Part shown: positions 3,571 to 25,460 of the stretch, in pieces | Layout: the number at the start of each line of letters is the position of its first letter | Numbering within the stretch: the stretch's first letter is position 1 | NCBI RefSeq assembly: GCF_013177315.1 | Contig: NZ_CP053661.1 | Location: forward strand, 2,170,001-2,234,000 | Length of the DNA stretch: 64,000 nt | Direction of reading: 5' to 3' | Origin: Thermoleptolyngbya sichuanensis A183 | Lineage (GTDB): Bacteria; Cyanobacteriota; Cyanobacteriia; Elainellales; Elainellaceae | Notes under the pieces: generated by a model | Told to the model about the DNA's origin: nothing | Database searches by the model: none | The model's input: only the letters and a program-made list of their open reading frames with translations | Made by a program: the position numbers and the translations under genes

Positions 3571-4206
3571 TTAGGGCGTGATAGGCTGCCCGCCGTTAGA
3601 CGGTGCAACAGGAACCACGTCGGGAACGGGAACGGCCGTCGTCCTCGGAGGCACAGCACTCGGATAGGCAATGTCGGGAATGTCAATGACTGGACGATCC
3701 AGCGCGATCATCAGTTGAGAATCGGACTGGGAAATCACGTTGACATGCGGGGAAAGATAGCTCGGAGCCACCACCGTCGTCACTGCGCCTGCAAACAGCG
3801 CTGCTGCCGCCGCCATGCCGCCCCAGGCCACAGTACGCTTTGGCTTACGCTCCAGCCGCTTCATCACCTGGCTGACCGTCTGTTCGACGGGGCGCTCGGC
3901 AGGAACAGGGAGGGTGCGTAGCCCATGCAACCCTTGACGCAGCTTGAGGAGGCGAGCATAAAGCTGTTGTGCAGAAGCGTCGCTGGCAAGCCATGCCTCA
4001 ATCTGGCGGCGATCGCTCGCAGAGACTTCGCCATCTAGATAGGCGCTCAATAACTCAAAGCGATCGCGCTTCAAATGGTCAATCGGCTCTACAGGTGAAC
4101 GATGCGCCCATTCTGGGGGCAGACCGCTCCCAGAGGCAGGGCGAGAGGCACGCTGCCGGGGAGTTTTACCGTCGTTAATATCAGGCATCATGGTCAAATC
4201 AATCAA
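3571..4206 (-). CDS. anti-sigma factor, membrane-anchored, partner of SigG
   Basis: The cytoplasmic N-terminus has the anti-sigma signature around residues 48-75 (RFELLSAYLDGEVSASDRRQ), followed by an amphipathic linker. One transmembrane segment lies at about 125-148, and a Pro-rich extracytoplasmic tail follows. This matches RseA/ChrR-like regulators that hold an ECF sigma factor at the membrane. The gene lies downstream of, and in the same direction as, the SigG-type sigma gene, 259 bases away. The zinc-binding HxxxCxxC of ZAS domains is absent. Met6 or Met7 could be the true start. Confidence 0.85.
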   Translation of the reverse strand: MIDLTMMPDINDGKTPRQRASRPASGSGLPPEWAHRSPVEPIDHLKRDRFELLSAYLDGEVSASDRRQIEAWLASDASAQQLYARLLKLRQGLHGLRTLPVPAERPVEQTVSQVMKRLERKPKRTVAWGGMAAAAALFAGAVTTVVAPSYLSPHVNVISQSDSQLMIALDRPVIDIPDIAYPSAVPPRTTAVPVPDVVPVAPSNGGQPITP

Positions 4207-18194: not shown

Positions 18195-19583
18195 CTAAAA
18201 TTCAGCGCTGAGCGGCGTTCGGGGGAAGGGGATGACATCGCGGATATTTTGCATTCCCGTCATGAATTGCACCAGACGCTCGAACCCAAGCCCAAAGCCC
18301 GCATGGGGCACCGTGCCAAACCGTCGTAGATCGAGATACCACCAGAGATCTTCGATGGGCATTCCTAAGTCTTGAATGCGTTTTTCCAAGACATCCAGGC
18401 GTTCCTCGCGCTGTGATCCACCGATGATTTCTCCAATACGTGGCGCAAGCACATCCATTGCGCGAACCGTTTTCTCATCGTCGTTCAGCCGCATGTAAAA
18501 AGCCTTGATCTCGACTGGATAATCTGTGACGATCAGCGGTTTCTTAAACAATTCCTCTGCTAGGTAACGCTCATGTTCCGATTGCAAGTCCAGTCCCCAG
18601 GAAACAGGGTACTCAAAGGTGCGATCGCTCTTTTCCAGAAGGGCGATCGCCTCTGTGTAGGTGATCCGTGCAAACTCGCTGTTAATAATATTCTCGGCCG
18701 TTTCCAGCACTGTGTTTTCAATGCGCTCATTAAAGAACGCCATATCTTCTGGGCATGTCTCTAGCACATGCTTGAACACGGACTTCAGGAAGGACTCGGC
18801 CAGTTCCATATTGCCCAGCAAATCGCAAAACGCCATCTCTGGCTCAATCATCCAGAACTCCGCCAAATGGCGTGACGTGTTGGAATTTTCGGCGCGAAAC
18901 GTGGGGCCAAAAGTATAGACATTGGAAAACGCCATCGCCATGATTTCCGCCTCTAGCTGGCCGGAGACAGTGAGATAGGCGCGTTTGCCAAAGAAATCTT
19001 GCCCAAAATCAACCTCGCCTTCTTTCGTCTTGGGCGGATTTTTCAAATCCAGATTCGTGACGGTGAATAACTCTCCCGCGCCCTCACAGTCGCTCGCGGT
19101 GATAATCGGCGTATGCACCCAGAGAAACCCCCGCTCTTGGAAAAAATGATGCACCGCCTGAGCAGCAGCGTTGCGGACGCGGAAAACTGCGCCGAGAGTA
19201 TTGGTGCGCGATCGCAGGTGGGCAATCGTCCGCAAAAACTCAAACGAGTGCCGCTTCTTTTGCAGCGGGTAGGTTTCCGGGTCTGCCTCGCCGTAGACCG
19301 TAACCGATTCCGCCCGCAGCTCAATCCGCTGCCCCTTGGCAGGCGACTCCACCAGCACACCGGAAATTTCCACCGCTGCACCCGTGTTGATGCGGGCGAT
19401 CGCCTCGGCATATCCCGGCATGTCTTGATTTGCCACCACTTGCAGCCCCGCCATCGAGGAGCCATCGTTCACCTCGATAAAGGTGAACTCCTTTTGTTCA
19501 CGTTTCGTCCGCACCCAGCCGCGCACGCTCACGGCATCGTTGGGCTGGCCCTGGCGGAGGAGGTCAAGAATGCGGTTCGGCAT
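18195..19583 (-). CDS. asnS: asparaginyl-tRNA synthetase
   Basis: Full-length class IIb aminoacyl-tRNA synthetase, 462 residues, the usual size. The N-terminal OB-fold anticodon-binding domain ([23 protein letters not shown]) is followed by class II motif 2 ([21 protein letters not shown]) and motif 3 ([16 protein letters not shown]). The [11 protein letters not shown] sequence points to Asn rather than Asp specificity. It charges tRNA-Asn with asparagine in the cytoplasm. It is transcribed alone, convergent with the importer operon on its left and divergent from the accessory island on its right. Confidence 0.97.
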
Positions 19584-19847
19584 ATTTCAAAGATCAGGGG
19601 TCAGGAGATGGGAGTGAGAGCCGGAAAGCCCTTCATTAAAAATAGCGGGTTTGGGGCGATCGCTCCCACTCTTTCACCACGTTTATCGCCTAATCCCACC
19701 TTCCTAACCCAAAAAAGACCATTTGCTACAGAGCAGCAGCTTCGTAGCACTGCATAAAACTTGTGGGATTGCCCCTCTGACAATTGCAATCCCAACACCG
19801 ACACTTCTGGGCGATCGCCCTTCATCTCCCAACACCTGCACCTTTGG

Positions 19848-20079
19848 GCGATCGCCCTCATCTGGCAGCACCGACATCTTTCGGCGATCGCCCCCCGGAT
19901 ACCTTTTGGGGCATTACACACTGGCCTGAGTCTGTCGCTACTCCACCTCTGCGGCTGACCCGAAAGCGGCTGGGAGTGTACGGCTTGACCCAGATCTCGA
20001 AGAACTGAACCTTCGCAATTTGGGGGGCGAATCGCTGACCCCACCGGAAGCTGACAGAACCAAGGCGCTGAGGGCTAAC
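19848..20079. repeat. long direct repeat, copy 1 (left side of the island)
   Basis: About 232 bp repeated at 23690-23993 with roughly 90 percent visible identity in the aligned parts. Both copies begin in a HIP1-containing CGATCGCCCTCATCTGGCAG segment and end exactly at GGCTAAC. Past that motif, copy 1 runs into an attC-like palindrome while copy 2 runs into unrelated sequence. No convincing ORF. Confidence 0.9.
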
Positions 20080-20158
20080 GGTGAAGTTGTGCGGCAGCAG
20101 ATAATCTTGAACTCTCACCAATAACCTCTGTACCGTCCGCACCAACGCAGTGTTTGAC
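20073..20158. repeat. attC-like imperfect palindrome 1
   Basis: Left arm GGCTAACGGTGAAGTTGTGC and right arm GCACCAACGCAGTGTTTGAC form an imperfect inverted repeat closed over about 45 bases. The terminal CTAAC/GTTTG boxes, and the GTGAAGT and ACGCAGTG inner blocks, are shared with the palindrome at 22598-22682. The layout resembles integron attC sites, but the outer boxes fit the RYYYAAC/GTTRRRY consensus only partly. Confidence 0.6.
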
Positions 20159-20212
20159 AGCTGACGCCAACCTTAGACAAAACGTCGAGATAAGAACATT
20201 TGTTCACAACAC

Positions 20213-20241
20213 TTGCAAGCATGCTACCATCCAAGTAGCAT
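20213..20241 (+). promoter_or_regulatory. candidate promoter with overlapping operator for the methyltransferase
   Basis: A -35-like TTGCAA (20213-20218) and a -10-like TAGCAT (20236-20241) are separated by 17 bases. The perfect inverted repeat ATGCTAC (20221-20227) / GTAGCAT (20235-20241) covers the spacer and the -10. Its position fits an operator bound by the methyltransferase's own N-terminal HTH. Prediction from sequence only. Confidence 0.5.
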
Positions 20242-20273
20242 GGGTACCTAGTTTTAGTTTCGCTCCCGAAAGC

Positions 20274-21701
20274 ATGGCTACTCAATACCTCTCTGTAAAA
20301 GAAACCTCTGAAATCTTAAACTGCTCGGAGCAATATGTGCGTCAGCTACTCAGGTATGGCGAGATCAGCGGGGAGAGGATTAGTAGTCGGTGGATTGTGG
20401 CATCAGAGTCTGTTCAGAACTACCGTATTAAAGGAGAAGATGTTAGCTTAAAAGTCCCTGATCATGGGCGACGCTCGTTCAGCAAACCTGAGCTAAAAGC
20501 CTTGAGTTTTTTTTCTGGTTGCATGGGTTTGGACTTGGGACTAGAAAAAGAAGGTATTCAGGTGCTACTTGCTTGTGAAATTGATGCAGCCGCTCGAAAA
20601 ACAATTGAGATCAATCGACCCGATATGGCATTGATTGGGGATATTCGGGATTACTCAGCTACAGAAATTCGAGAAAAAGCAGGACTTAGTTCAACCGATG
20701 AGATTGATGTCATCGTTGGCGGACCACCGTGCCAAGCCTTTAGCAGTGCGGGAAAGCGCCAAGGATTTAATGATGAACGAGGTAATGTTTTCTTGACATT
20801 TATTGATTTAATTACTGAGCTTAAACCGAGATTTGCAGTCATTGAAAATGTTCGAGGATTATTATCTGCTCCGTTGAAGCATAGACCTCACGAAATGCGA
20901 GGAAAAAATTTCCCACCCTTGTCTCAGGATGAGCAAAGAGGTGGTGCCTTGCTGTTTATTACTCAACGGCTCAGAGAGGCTGGGTACAGTATTTCCTTTA
21001 ATTTGTACAATGCTGCTAATTTTGGATCACCACAGCAGCGGGAAAGGGTTGTCATTGCTTGTAGTCGTGATGGAGAAAAACTTCCCTACCTCACACCTAC
21101 TCATTCAGAAAAGGGTCTATATGGGCTGCCAACCTGGAAAAGTTTACGAGAAGCCTTAGAAGGTCTTCCCAAAGATGGACATCATTTTGTCAAGTTTCCT
21201 GAAAAACGGCTTAAGTATTACAGGCTCCTGAAACCTGGACAATACTGGCGGGACTTACCAGAAGAGTTACATCAAGAGGCGCTAGGAGCTTCTTATCATG
21301 CAGGAGGGGGAAAAACAGGTTTTTATCGTAGGCTAGCGTGGGATAAACCTGCCCCTACCTTAGTCACTCATCCAGCAATGCCTGCAACGGATCTAGCCCA
21401 TCCAGAAGAGGATAGACCCCTTAGTATTGAAGAATATAAGCGTATTCAAGAATTTCCAGACGATTGGATTATTGCAGGTACCTTACTTGAGCAATATCGG
21501 CAAGTTGGCAATGCTGTACCCTGCTCTCTAGGAAGAGCGATCGCTAGGATGTTGCTATCTCATCTAAGGGGTGAACAGCTTATTACATATCCAGATTTTC
21601 CGTATTCTCGCTATCATAAAACCGATGATGTCAGTTGGATGAAGAATATGGGTTGTTTTGAAGAATCCTCAGCAAAACAACTATCCCTCAACTTAGTTTG
21701 A
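20274..21701 (+). CDS. type II DNA cytosine-5 methyltransferase with N-terminal HTH
   Basis: A 475-residue C5-cytosine methyltransferase. Motif I FFSGCMGLDLG (79-89), motif IV GGPPCQAFSS with catalytic Cys153, motif VI ENVRG (191-195), motif VIII QQRERV and motif X QVGNAVP are all intact. Residues 1-55 form an excisionase/MerR-like winged HTH (LSVKETSEILNCSEQYVRQLLRYGEI), so it may also repress its own promoter. It protects host DNA from the convergent nuclease at 21693, overlapping by 9 bases. The gene is AT-rich with codon use unlike its neighbours, consistent with transfer. The frame is open to 20154, but the ATG at 20274 opens the HTH. Confidence 0.93.
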   Translation: MATQYLSVKETSEILNCSEQYVRQLLRYGEISGERISSRWIVASESVQNYRIKGEDVSLKVPDHGRRSFSKPELKALSFFSGCMGLDLGLEKEGIQVLLACEIDAAARKTIEINRPDMALIGDIRDYSATEIREKAGLSSTDEIDVIVGGPPCQAFSSAGKRQGFNDERGNVFLTFIDLITELKPRFAVIENVRGLLSAPLKHRPHEMRGKNFPPLSQDEQRGGALLFITQRLREAGYSISFNLYNAANFGSPQQRERVVIACSRDGEKLPYLTPTHSEKGLYGLPTWKSLREALEGLPKDGHHFVKFPEKRLKYYRLLKPGQYWRDLPEELHQEALGASYHAGGGKTGFYRRLAWDKPAPTLVTHPAMPATDLAHPEEDRPLSIEEYKRIQEFPDDWIIAGTLLEQYRQVGNAVPCSLGRAIARMLLSHLRGEQLITYPDFPYSRYHKTDDVSWMKNMGCFEESSAKQLSLNLV

Positions 21702-22445
21702 TGAATCTGACAAATCCTTCCAAGGATTGTTTATCTCAATGGCTAAGGCATCTGGATTGCGGGTTAGAACCTGCTGGACAAAGATAACGAAGTTTTCTTC
21801 TGAAAAGCGATTCGTATTGTACTTGTCGTTGAAATAAGACCATCGATACGAGCCTGTTCTGGCATCAACCCGATACCATTTCTCAATGGGCTGATTAATT
21901 CTTACTCTAGAAGATGAACTGTTTTCCGAGTTGCTACGATTTTTGACCTGTAAGAGAGAGCCATCGACATTACAAAAATCTACGTGCCGAACAGATTCTC
22001 CCCAACAACAATACCAACCATAATCAGCAAGTTGCTCAGCCAGAAACTCCTCCAGTAGTAATCCTTGAATATTTTCAGCAGACATTGATAGCCTATGGGC
22101 ATATTTGATTTGCTCAAGATGTTCCGTTGTTAGTCCTATCAACCGAGCGTTTATAATTATACTGACAATTGGATCGGCAACTGTGCCTGAGAGTTGTGAG
22201 ATTCGCCTTGAAATTCGATTTTCATAACTATCGTTATACTTTTTCAACCAAGCTTTGGCTAACGTTTCTGGTGTATTAGCTTTTAGGGTTGGGGAAAGTC
22301 CTGGATTTCTGTAGCACGCTGTGAGAATTGTTCGGTGCGCTTCAAGCAATAGCTGATTCTCTTGAGAGAATGCATCTTCAAAAATCTTTAAAAAGTCTCC
22401 TTCAGAACTTGAAGTGCTGATAATGCTATCGAAGTTAACAGACAT
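21693..22445 (-). CDS. type II restriction endonuclease, SinI-like
   Basis: A 250-residue protein. The block SLLQVKNRSNSENSSSSRVR (163-182) and LSMSAENIQGLLLEEFLAEQL (119-139) match the SinI restriction endonuclease family as I recall it. SinI cuts GGWCC sequences. A PD-(D/E)xK-like core can be placed at Asp156, Gln166 and Lys168, with Gln in place of the usual acidic residue. It is tail-to-tail with the cognate methyltransferase, the gene ends overlapping by 9 bases. Composition is AT-rich like its partner. Intact length suggests activity; the recognition site is inferred. Confidence 0.8.
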   Translation of the reverse strand: MSVNFDSIISTSSSEGDFLKIFEDAFSQENQLLLEAHRTILTACYRNPGLSPTLKANTPETLAKAWLKKYNDSYENRISRRISQLSGTVADPIVSIIINARLIGLTTEHLEQIKYAHRLSMSAENIQGLLLEEFLAEQLADYGWYCCWGESVRHVDFCNVDGSLLQVKNRSNSENSSSSRVRINQPIEKWYRVDARTGSYRWSYFNDKYNTNRFSEENFVIFVQQVLTRNPDALAIEINNPWKDLSDSSN

Positions 22446-22597
22446 CTAATATTTTTCCTCTGAACATACAAATCATGCAACAGAAATGTCCACAATTGTA
22501 CGTCACAGTGATTTTCCTGGATTTGCTCCTCAAAGCTTAAACGGTTGTCCTCGAACAGGCAAGGTATCGGCTACTGCCTCAGCCGAGGGTTAAAGCC

Positions 22598-22682
22598 GTC
22601 TAACGGTGAAGTGCAGCGGCGGCAGATAGGCTTGACTTAGCACCGGCAGCTTTCGCCCGTCCGCTGCCACGCAGTGTTAGCC
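22598..22682. repeat. attC-like imperfect palindrome 2
   Basis: Outer boxes GTCTAAC (22598-22604) and GTTAGCC (22676-22682) flank arms containing GTGAAGTGCAGCGG and CCGCTGCCACGCAGTG, an imperfect inverted repeat over 85 bp. GTCTAAC fits the integron RYYYAAC box. It lies directly downstream (on the map) of the restriction-modification pair and 10 bases before the XisI stop codon. Confidence 0.65.
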
Positions 22683-22692
22683 TGCGCCACTA

Positions 22693-23037
22693 CTACGACG
22701 CTACAGCAAACTCCGTATACTGTCTCATCTTAGGCTCATGGAATGCCAGTACAATATCCTCTTTGGGAACACCTTCACGAATTAAATCAGTCGCAATACC
22801 GTTTTCAGTCCAATCCTCTTCGATCCAGAATTTACCATCCCGAATCCGAACATAGACCGTCATCCCAGTAATACGTTCCCCATTCTGCCAACCAAGGTTC
22901 ATCCAGATATAGTGGGCTTTAGCCTCATCTACAATCAAAAACGTTTCAATGTCTGGGTTAGGGTGACGTTTACTCAGCTCCACGTATTCAGTCAAAATGC
23001 GCTTAATTAACTTTGGATACTTCGTTAATTTATCCAT
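22693..23037 (-). CDS. xisI: XisI-family protein (fdxN element excision controlling factor)
   Basis: A 114-residue member of the XisI family, full length. Landmarks are the N-terminal ILTEYVELSKRHPNPDIET, the central DEAKAHYIWMNLGWQNGERI and the C-terminal EDIVLAFHEPKMRQYTEFAV. In Anabaena, XisH and XisI are needed with XisF recombinase for excision of the fdxN element. In other cyanobacteria they are abundant XisH-XisI pairs outside such elements and of uncertain role. Here it overlaps a truncated XisH gene by 13 bases. It sits between two attC-like palindromes, as a cassette would. AT-rich relative to the chromosome. Confidence 0.9.
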   Translation of the reverse strand: MDKLTKYPKLIKRILTEYVELSKRHPNPDIETFLIVDEAKAHYIWMNLGWQNGERITGMTVYVRIRDGKFWIEEDWTENGIATDLIREGVPKEDIVLAFHEPKMRQYTEFAVAS

Positions 23038-23285
23038 TGCAAAATTTCCTCCGTTTCTATATCTACAACAATGACGGGAAGTCGATGTTTATTGAGAATG
23101 AGTTGAGTCACATCCTGAGCAAAAAAGGTATTGTATGCAACTTTGTTGACGGCAACGTACAACTTACGGTCTGGGGCTATTTCCTCTAAAAGATAGCGGT
23201 ATATGTCATACTGACCGAGAGCCCTGGTTGCCTGACACAAGTCCCGAAAGCCCAGAAAATTCGTTGTCTTGGGATCGAAGCCCAT
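23025..23285 (-). pseudogene. truncated XisH-family gene
   Basis: The 86 predicted residues match only the C-terminal part of XisH (ALGQYDIYRYLLEE, KLYVAVNKVAYNTFF, LPVIVVDIETEEILQW). XisH is normally about 135-140 residues. The missing N-terminus carries the Asp and Glu-Val-Lys of its PD-(D/E)xK nuclease-like core. Reading upstream of the ATG gives unrelated residues and then a stop, so the loss is real and not a start-codon choice. The 3-prime end still overlaps xisI, showing they were an operon. Probably a remnant; a short protein could still be made from the ATG at 23285. Confidence 0.8.
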
Positions 23286-23597
23286 AGCTCCTGAGTTGGA
23301 GCCGGAGGGCTTGGTCAGAGGAGCTTTTGGGCCAGCGTCCCCTACAAGAAATCAGGGGTTTCCAGAGATGTGTCAGGCAGTCAGGTTTTCAGCACTTTCA
23401 CCTACAGCAATTGTACCCACCAGCTTTAAATTGATGCACATTTAGAGATCTTGTACACCTCAGCTTTATCTTGTCATCCCTAACTGTAGCCGTACTAGCA
23501 GTTTTGAGATGTAACCTTACCACGCTGTTTTCTTGCCTACTGTGTTCTGGCTACTAACGGGTATGCTTTTGGTTGTGGCCTTATTGTTGACTCAGCA
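23286..23597. other. AT-rich stretch without a recognised gene
   Basis: Lies between the truncated xisH start and the third attC-like palindrome. It contains no ORF of note and no match to the lost xisH N-terminus in any frame I could read. Probably cassette-internal spacer or decayed DNA. Confidence 0.4.
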
Positions 23598-23685
23598 GGC
23601 TAACGTTCCCAATCACCCGCCGCAGACAATCTCGGACTCCAACCGATAACTGATTGGCGGCCGGTGTGCATTGGGGTTGTTAGCA
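23598..23685. repeat. attC-like imperfect palindrome 3
   Basis: Outer boxes GGCTAAC (23598-23604) and GTTAGCA (23679-23685). Inner arms TTCCCAATCACCCGCCG and CGGCCGGTGTGCATTGGGG pair imperfectly. Inner sequence differs from palindromes 1 and 2 while the CTAAC/GTTAG ends persist, as expected of recombination sites recognised by structure. Confidence 0.6.
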
Positions 23686-23689
23686 CTGA

Positions 23690-23993
23690 GCGATCGCCCT
23701 CATCTGGCAGTACCGACATCTTTGGGCGATCGCCCCCCGGATACCTTTTGGGGCATTGCACACTGACCGAAGTCTATCGCTACTCCACCGTGCCTTTACC
23801 GTCAAGTATATACCCGCCAGTTCTAATCGCACACCGACCGAAGTCTATCGCTACTCCACCTCTGCGGCCGACCCGAAAGCGGCTGGGAGTGTGCAGCTTG
23901 ACCCAGACCTCGAAGAACTGAACCTTCGCAATTTGGGGGGCGAATCGCTGACCCCCACCGGAAGCTGACAGAACCAGGGCGCTGAGGGCTAAC
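23690..23993. repeat. long direct repeat, copy 2 (right side of the island)
   Basis: Second copy of the 19848-20079 repeat. It differs by an internal 72-bp duplication: the segment CGAAGTCTATCGCTACTCC appears twice, near 23768 and 23840. It ends at GGCTAAC (23987-23993), the same point where copy 1 enters palindrome 1. A predicted minus-strand ORF here has no recognisable similarity. Confidence 0.9.
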
Positions 23994-24000
23994 AATATTA

Positions 24001-24143
24001 TTAGACGGAAAGTTTCTGGATAACTGCCCATCTGGGGGTGTTATACGGAAACCGTCGGGCTAATTCCGGATGTTGGGGAATTAAACCGAAACTTGCCGTA
24101 TAATATCCGCCCCAGGGCAATTAAACCGACATTTTCCGTATGT
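24001..24143. repeat. array of four degenerate 23-bp palindromic sites, exact 40-bp period
   Basis: Sites start at 24001, 24041, 24081 and 24121. Each is a variant of a partial palindrome of the form TTATACGGAAA-N-TTTCCGTATAA; the first two read in one sense and the last two in the other. Spacers are exactly 17 bases and unrelated in sequence. The regular period and symmetry suggest DNA-binding or recombination sites. Confidence 0.75.
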
Positions 24144-24374
24144 TTTCAGAATCACGGCAAAGACCGTGAGGAATTTATACCCGTACACTGAATCGGGGTG
24201 GACGGGGGGAAAGAGTCCGTTGGATGGGTGAGTGCAGAAGAGGGCTTTGGGGGTGTTTGGACGGGTTGAGTTTTGGAGTGGGGATTTTGGATTTTGGATT
24301 GAGGGGATGCCCCTGTTTGACTGACAAAACAGGTTAAAGCTGGAACGAAAGCCAGGAGGGAAGCAGAGCTTGAT

Positions 24375-24660
24375 TTACGCCGCCTCAATCAACGGCTTGT
24401 ACAGGCGATGGACGTTCAGACGACTGTTGTGCAGCCAGCGGCTTAGCCGTCGTTGTTTGCTTTGTGCCTGCACTCCTCGACAGGGGACATAGGGCAAGCC
24501 ACCGCGTCAGGTTGACCTCTCCGCGCTGGAGTAAGGCGATGACCATCCACAGGCAGGTCGTCAGATGCCCACGATGCGCTCAGGGTACCGATTGACCCAG
24601 CCAAGTGTTCAAGGCATTGTAGAGAGGGGAGTTCACAACATCTATGCTTTTGAGTGGTAT
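24375..24660 (-). pseudogene. transposase remnant (IS4-like N-terminal part, frameshifted)
   Basis: Reading the minus strand, frame 1 gives LYNALNTWLGQSVP, a stop, then HRGHLTTCLWMVIALLQRG and NLTRWL. A frameshift leads to YVPCRGVQAQSKQRRLSRW and NSRLNVHRLYKPLIEAA followed by a stop. This order matches the N-terminal region of a DDE transposase common in cyanobacteria. Only about 85 codons remain, with at least one stop and one frameshift, and no catalytic domain. I cannot see its terminal repeats. It marks past IS insertion at the island's right edge. Confidence 0.7.
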
Positions 24661-24810
24661 CTAAGCTTAGAACGCTGGCTCCCCTCTCTCTCCTCAGTTC
24701 TCTGAAACTACAGCACCACAAGCTGTTCAGCAGCTTATAGACAACTTTTGTCAGTCAACCAGGGGGATGCCCTGCTAAAATCCAAAACCCAAAATCCTCC
24801 TTATCTGTTC

Positions 24811-25107
24811 TTACTCGTTTGCGCTAGGGTTGCTGCAGATTTCACGATGGAGGTAGCGCAGCACTTCACCGGGGCGACCGTCGAGGACGATGCCGTGGGG
24901 TGGGAAATCCAGGGCGTGCGTCCACTCGAAGCGTTCGGCATAGCGCAGCAGGTGGAGCCGGTCAATCGCCATCTGTGCGTCTTCGGGCAGGCCGATGATG
25001 CAGTGGCGCAGGCGGCGACGGTGGGGCAGTTCGCAGGTGAGCGGGGGCAGCGAAAACTGGGTCGCCTCCGAGAATGGGGACGACCAGGTGTATTGAATTG
25101 TCAGCAT
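24811..25107 (-). CDS. small conserved hypothetical protein, 98 aa
   Basis: I cannot assign a named family. The composition is natural (Arg-rich RRRLRHCIIGLPEDAQMAIDR, then RPGEVLRYLHRE) with no membrane segment. A GGAGG ribosome-binding site lies 9 bases before the ATG, within a small GTTTCC-TGGA-GGAAAC hairpin that might modulate translation. A longer plus-strand frame over the same DNA (24748-25305) has unnatural composition, so I take this one as the gene. It sits between a transposase remnant and the cupin gene. Confidence 0.6.
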   Translation of the reverse strand: MLTIQYTWSSPFSEATQFSLPPLTCELPHRRRLRHCIIGLPEDAQMAIDRLHLLRYAERFEWTHALDFPPHGIVLDGRPGEVLRYLHREICSNPSANE

Positions 25108-25460
25108 TTGGGGTTTCCTCCAGGAAACGAGGTAGGGAAACCCCGAAAAGATGGCCGCCCAAACGACGCAAAGCAGGTTTCAAGGCGGCCATACAATAGG
25201 CAAAGCCCTGAGACAGCTCACTCTGTCCTGGGGTCAGGCGTTGGTAGGTGCGCCAACATCTACCAATGCCGTAAACGACGAACCGGCCAAATTTTCGGGG
25301 AGTGAAGCAAGCTGCGTCTTGGAAAAATTACAGCTTGATGGACGATTGTAGTGGATACCCCTGATCGGCGCAAGCAAAATTTTGCTACGGAGTGTGAAGG
25401 GGTTTGTCGCTGCTTGGGAGGCAAGATTTCCCTGCCAAGGCTCGCACCGCAATGTCGGCC
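25108..25460. other. intergenic region without a recognised gene
   Basis: Lies between the small 98-aa gene and the cupin stop codon. A short GCGCAAGCAAAATTTTGCTACG palindrome-like segment is near 25369-25390. No gene, RNA or terminator was identified. Confidence 0.4.

Follow-up and report, generated by a model that had tools for sequence, protein, structure and literature searches.

Cyanobacteria are listed among the phyla with sedentary chromosomal integrons (PMC2426708, PMC8618304), and an attC covariance model exists for the phylum (PMC8352920). Cyanobacterial integrons, the cyanobacterial attC model, CALINs, and the mobilisation of CALIN cassettes in trans have already been described (PMC2426708, PMC8618304, PMC8352920, PMC9668308, PMC12444791). 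CALINs are treated in PMC12444791 and PMC9668308, and the latter reports that they outnumber complete integrons among bacteria. Single scattered cassettes are also known, as SALINs or as insertions at attG (PMC9229058; Loot et al. 2024, as cited in PMC12690207).

The island considered here lies within a 64-kb stretch of DNA, all of which was analysed and which is referred to as the window. With a probability of roughly 0.93, judged from sequence comparison, it is an integron cassette array whose integrase gene was deleted and whose attI was retained. Its three attC sites, where a CALIN requires at least two, share one orientation and lie within 4 kb, with no intact intI linked to them in the window. 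It differs from a CALIN in having an attI at its head together with a piece of intI; the CALIN descriptions, in the parts available, mention no retained attI. The attI architecture, the attC lengths of 85–88 nt, the cassette boundaries, and the orientation are those of the sedentary chromosomal integrons of Cyanobacteria, but here intI has been deleted, and arrays headed by attI occur at several separate chromosomal loci in a genome that has a single intI. Single cassettes scattered elsewhere in the genome, such as copies of a repeat cassette described below, recall SALINs and attG insertions, whereas the window array sits at attI and not at attG. The array is thus of a known kind, an integron cassette array and by definition a CALIN, and is apparently an undescribed variant of it: in the open-access literature searched, no description of intI-less, attI-headed arrays was found for Cyanobacteria or elsewhere.

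The first-pass annotation of this DNA had pointed to three palindromes with CTAAC/GTTAG ends, and both the coordinates and the boxes are as it claimed. To examine them without circularity, a covariance model was built from 20 intI-linked attC sites, picked from arrays in the DNA upstream of 20 intI genes of other cyanobacteria, the host genome being excluded. All three palindromes match this model significantly in the 64-kb window: attC1 (20073–20158; 79.3 bits, E = 6.3e-18), attC2 (22598–22682; 78.7 bits, E = 9.2e-18), and attC3 (23598–23685; 48.4 bits, E = 4.7e-10). All lie on the minus strand, which is the functional orientation, and no further site was found in the window up to E = 10. The palindromes therefore match cyanobacterial attC sites closely, and the deviation from the cyanobacterial consensus that had been proposed for them is not borne out. 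Across the host genome the model finds 11 clear attC sites and a weaker one adjoining intI. Covariation supports the modelled hairpin: double-changed cells number 52, whereas shuffles average 12.5 and in 500 trials never reach the observed count, and slid versions of the hairpin show no covariation comparable to that of the true register.

Folding energy is exceptional for attC3 (z of -4.4 and -4.8 against shuffles) and resembles that of shuffled sequences for attC1 and attC2 (z from 0.5 to -0.82). Because folding energy alone singles out only attC3, the covariance model is the right test for attC sites. A simple scan for the R''/R' pattern gave many false positives. Rfam returned no match, and BLAST against plasmids returned only attC-like fragments, methyltransferase genes, and one MITE-like piece. 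In the present context the R''/R' pairing is imperfect in attC1 and attC3. By the covariance model, all three are genuine recombination sites of the attC type.

IntI recombines folded attC with attI at the position G^TT. Crossover points at G^TT divide the island into segments 23992–23604, 23603–22604, 22603–20079, and 20078 to about 19807. Read along the minus strand, the order is attI, an ORF-less cassette, attC3, a xisHI cassette, attC2, a restriction-modification cassette, attC1, and a truncated ORF-less cassette. Cassette 1 (23604–23992, minus strand) is an ORF-less repeat cassette (RC) that contains a minisatellite with HIP1 and ends in attC3. Cassette 4 (19807–20078, minus strand) is a second RC copy, 82–93% identical, truncated in the minisatellite and devoid of an attC; it forms the distal end of the array, adjoining asnS (18195–19583). 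The shared repeat of about 230–300 bp (19845–20079 and 23687–23993), which had escaped the first-pass annotation, is itself a cassette. RC is treated as ORF-less since the longest frames differ between copies. It is likewise the cassette next to attI both at the intI locus and at the 276-kb site, and at least 12 full or partial copies occur in the genome. A scattered RC copy at 2254 kb starts at TTAGCC and has no attI-like flank. No clean empty site was found in the sole genome of the same genus, a draft in which the asnS and def-cupin flanks are unjoined, lying on different contigs with other neighbours.

Cassette 3 (20079–22603, minus strand; 2525 bp) holds a complete restriction-modification pair, as had been claimed, putatively of type II. 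A SinI-type restriction endonuclease (21693–22445, minus strand, the cassette sense; Pfam RE_SinI, 1.3e-36; PADLOC REase_II, 2.7e-46) converges on a C5-cytosine methyltransferase with an N-terminal HTH (20274–21701, plus strand; Pfam DNA_methylase, 6.5e-60; HTH_17, 2.3e-5). Both families are present; in a type II system the two enzymes would share one specificity. The pair is like known SinI-type systems in its C5 methyltransferase and RE_SinI-family endonuclease but differs in that the convergent genes are packaged as one mobile cassette, whose ends coincide with crossover points in relatives. In Calothrix sp. NIES-3974 a copy with 96.4% identity over 2548 nt begins and stops within a few bases of both crossover points, near G^TT, while the preceding attC and the following cassette are unrelated to those of the window. 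This level of identity indicates recent movement. Full-segment matches in Goleter (90.3%), REEB459 (87.1%), UBA999 (86.8%), and Shackletoniella (82.7%) end at or near the same points. Two of the relatives, at about 87% identity, are metagenome-assembled genomes.

Among named genomes, the SinI-type endonuclease was located at 22 cyanobacterial loci, nine of which carry same-strand attC sites beside the pair, with a weaker match in a tenth. The upstream joint GTTCGAC occurs in five loci, four of which carry GTCGAAC as the R'' box of the cassette itself. The box is the exact complement of the cassette start, as expected if TTCGAC travels with the cassette. The island thus offers a case of a complete restriction-modification system that moves from one distant cyanobacterium to another in one cassette.

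Cassette 2 (22604–23603, minus strand) is an internally deleted xisH–xisI cassette with relatives in four genomes, G146, G003, G174, and G023. The earlier reading of its genes also holds: xisI (22693–23037, minus strand; Pfam XisI, 3.8e-43) is full length, and xisH (23025–23285, minus strand; Pfam XisH, 5.5e-18, profile positions 62–133) is reduced to its C-terminal part. The first 20 or so codons of the truncated frame are sequence of a MITE-like element of about 163 bp (23223–23385; terminal inverted repeats 23223–23256 and 23352–23385), of which a 99% copy lies at C1:1792997-1793155. In G146, G003, and G174 xisHI is 93–97% identical at the nucleotide level and is followed directly by an attC; in G146, where identity is 93.6% over 622 nt, homology stops at window position 22603. 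The G023 genes are 93% identical; upstream of them G023 retains another attC and, right after it, sequence that matches the 5' end of the cassette (23606–23385, 84%). In the window the MITE-like element stands in place of about 0.7 kb of ancestral cassette sequence, the 5' part of xisH among it, and G023 keeps the missing DNA. Comparison with these relatives thus explains the truncated xisH. Exchange of whole cassettes at G^TTRRRY is therefore seen both for the restriction-modification cassette (Calothrix and others) and for xisHI (G146, G003, and G023); these segments, cut at the boxes, recur in unrelated genomes, which is the pattern that the first-pass annotation had proposed to look for.

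A feature that was previously overlooked is an attI without an integrase (23987–24140, minus strand), whose core (24054–23991) ends in G^TT, with the G at 23993. In other genera the DNA between intI and the first cassette has a common core, TTAGGCRGAAANNTTCNGTCTAATANNTAG^TT, after related repeats. A model built from 13 intI-adjacent attI sites of other genomes, the host genome again excluded, scores the window site at 50.4 bits (E = 7e-8 in the window), the best match genome-wide, with an equal score for a sister copy at 276 kb. Further inverted and direct copies of the predicted binding motif precede the core. Cassette 1 is joined to this attI at G^TT, as at the insertion point of a complete integron. 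Because attI heads the array, the island is an integrase-less integron and not a bare cluster of attC sites.

On the far side of attI from the cassettes lies a scar of intI (24160–24233, plus strand), the frameshifted last 25 or so codons (IYTRTLNRGGRG..), with 72% nucleotide identity to the 3' end of intI. Its local alignment score is 29, and shuffled sequences score at most 17; taken alone against the whole window, this short, frameshifted piece is not significant (E = 0.11). The identification rests on its position and on better preserved sister scars at 276 kb and 561 kb (IYTRTLNRGGREVRSPLDG), which match IntI C-termini at E values of about 1e-6 to 1e-7. A scar beside attI implies either that a complete integron was formerly present in the window or that the locus was copied from one where it was. 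Beyond the scar come a MITE/IS-like insertion (24302–24773) with 28-nt inverted ends (inverted repeat I2, 89%) and an interior repeated elsewhere, and then a multicopy flanking repeat of about 590 bp (24775–25360) containing a 98-residue ORF (24811–25107, minus strand). This repeat has about 14 significant matches in the genome, seven of them beside attI platforms or relics.

The claim that the window lacks an integrase is correct in that no intact intI adjoins the array and only the C-terminal scar is present, but the genome does encode one. Its single full-length IntI (C1:520818-521756; 480 bits, cut-off 265) lies 1.67 Mb from the array, in an intact open frame in which both the tyrosine-recombinase motifs and ALERKYP are preserved. 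The locus continues with a type A attI, RC, an attC, and an ABC-transporter ATPase gene, resembling ftsE in the reading of its ORF. Five intact attI sites have no integrase: three of type A, at 4044, 4631, and 5007 kb, and two of type B, at 276 kb and in the window. Matches at 561, 2252, and 2342 kb were judged to be relics interrupted by insertions and were not counted. The 590-bp repeat is common to most platforms beyond attI and occurs also downstream of intI, which suggests that some form of duplication spread the whole platform together. The 4044-kb and 5007-kb platforms, neither of which has intI, are colinear over 888 bp (82.8%) up to exactly G^TT, where unrelated first cassettes begin. 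At least one of the two must therefore have swapped its cassette once the intI-less arrangement they share was in place. The pair points to recombination in trans at some stage, by one integrase or another.

In the explanation that best fits these observations, the array's own intI was very probably deleted, with attI and the cassettes left in place. We infer that the cassettes entered by IntI-catalysed attI x attC recombination. This would have happened while intI was still in place or else later, in trans, through the IntI encoded 1.67 Mb away; capture in trans is suggested. The intI-less platform, comprising attI, scar, and flanking repeat, would later have been copied to other chromosomal sites. 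The earlier proposal of an attC cluster without integrase was sound as to the attC sites and the segments cut at their boxes, but incomplete, since an attI and an intI scar head the array and a full IntI is encoded elsewhere.

A tentative alternative, to which we give somewhat less than even odds, assigns the locus the same identity and differs on its present activity: a complete integron lost intI long ago, the array is now inert, and the remaining attI copies arose by segmental duplication and are just as dead. A fossil would accord with the window's intI scar, the truncated distal cassette, the IS and MITE insertions, and the decayed xisH, and also with the progressively shortened intI remnants beside attI in some other genomes. 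Weighing against complete inactivity are the recent movement implied by the 96.4% identity to the Calothrix cassette, the intact open frame of the resident intI, and the 4044-kb and 5007-kb platforms, which share an upstream arrangement without intI and yet carry different first cassettes exactly at G^TT. Segmental duplication, or homologous recombination between flanking repeats, with cassette differences arising by ordinary replacement, could account for the spread of the platforms, whose copies include the 590-bp repeat, and the window and 276-kb loci are indeed 98.7% identical across attI. It is improbable as the whole explanation, since it does not explain why the sequence changes abruptly at G^TT in several independent pairs of loci and genomes; the breakpoints scattered around G^TT that it would need are not seen in the compared pairs.

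Insertion of the cassettes by IntI at a non-attI genomic site, the attG of Loot et al. 2024 (as cited in PMC12690207), is very improbable for the window. The 2254-kb RC copy suggests that such events may exist in this genome, but the window array is headed by an attI that an independent model recognises at 50.4 bits, followed by the intI scar. Hardest to credit is a different hairpin-based system, such as IS200/IS605-type ends, REP or MITE palindromes, or another recombinase. MITE and IS elements are indeed present within the island and beside it. Nevertheless, integrons are matched by the site model, by the orientation and the crossover position, by the attI and the scar of intI, and by the exchange of cassettes. 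The other structure-based recombination system envisaged by the first-pass annotation is not needed, as the attC model and the cassette exchange fit an integron.

The presence of attI and an intI scar in a CALIN illustrates one route by which such arrays may form, through loss of intI from a complete integron. With attI these arrays keep an insertion point, and could take up further cassettes were an integrase supplied in trans. More broadly, it is possible, though we hold the odds to be slightly under even, that the cyanobacterial attI is a dispersed landing platform uncoupled from intI, with many copies per genome heading live arrays, one resident or transient integrase serving them in trans, and intI-less platforms copied around the chromosome.

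Landing sites of this kind, without an integrase, are found in many other cyanobacteria. The integrase profile TIGR02249 exceeds its curated cut-off in 123 of 390 genomes of the class. The attI model gives 624 matches (E <= 1e-3) in 187 of the 390, an upper bound on true attI sites since the matches were not all inspected; 92 of the 187 have no integrase match at E <= 1e-60, so that the origin of such arrays can be studied in many lineages. From the strong attI matches without a nearby listed integrase, 20 in well-assembled genomes were chosen as a sample. For fifteen of them the surrounding 5 kb shows no trace of intI; at the other five, all that is left of it is an N-terminal piece of about 37–118 residues. 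Downstream attC sites on the same strand accompany 14 of the 20, and 37 of the 38 attC sites in these regions lie on the downstream side and on the correct strand. Where one genome has a pair of such orphan attI sites, the two agree as far as G^TT and diverge beyond it.

The two genes of the R-M pair (window 20274-22445) are convergent, with a 9-bp overlap of their 3' ends. The methyltransferase is oriented opposite to the cassette direction and presumably has its own promoter.

The ORF-less repeat cassette (window 23690-23992), which often stands directly after attI, contains a 36-37-bp minisatellite that includes HIP1. At least 12 copies, full or partial, are found, among them those at C1:276124, 520305, 570415, 2254468, 4083286, and 5004063 (C1 is the genome contig). 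In G146, a cyanobacterial genome that shares the xisHI cassette, a different ORF-less cassette, itself present many times over, occupies the same position. The copy at C1:2254468-2254697 begins TTAGCC and has neither attI nor attC ahead of it; it may be a natural insertion of the attG type, at a non-attI genomic site used by IntI.

The flanking repeat of ~590 bp (window 24775-25360) recurs at about 14 places across the A183 genome, among them C1:5295668, 5381174, 3331798, 2132752, 4226572, and 1279243, and in several copies in the sister genome G001. It encloses a conserved ORF of ~90-98 aa that belongs to no known family. Half of the copies adjoin attI platforms or interrupted attI relics.

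Further attI arrays without intI lie at C1:4631305-4636464 and C1:5006490-5007647 in A183, heavily interrupted by IS elements; a D12-type adenine methyltransferase and an HNH protein are carried there, along with unknown genes. In Calothrix sp. NIES-3974 (L216, 1166935-1177684), the intI beside an attI that heads an array containing the R-M cassette is reduced to its first 29 codons, and the sole full intI of that genome is at 3.44 Mb. In a single genome, G171, the integrase gene is missing at three attI sites (L285, L286, and L287); the first cassette after attI is the same one in all three, and is tandemly repeated in two.
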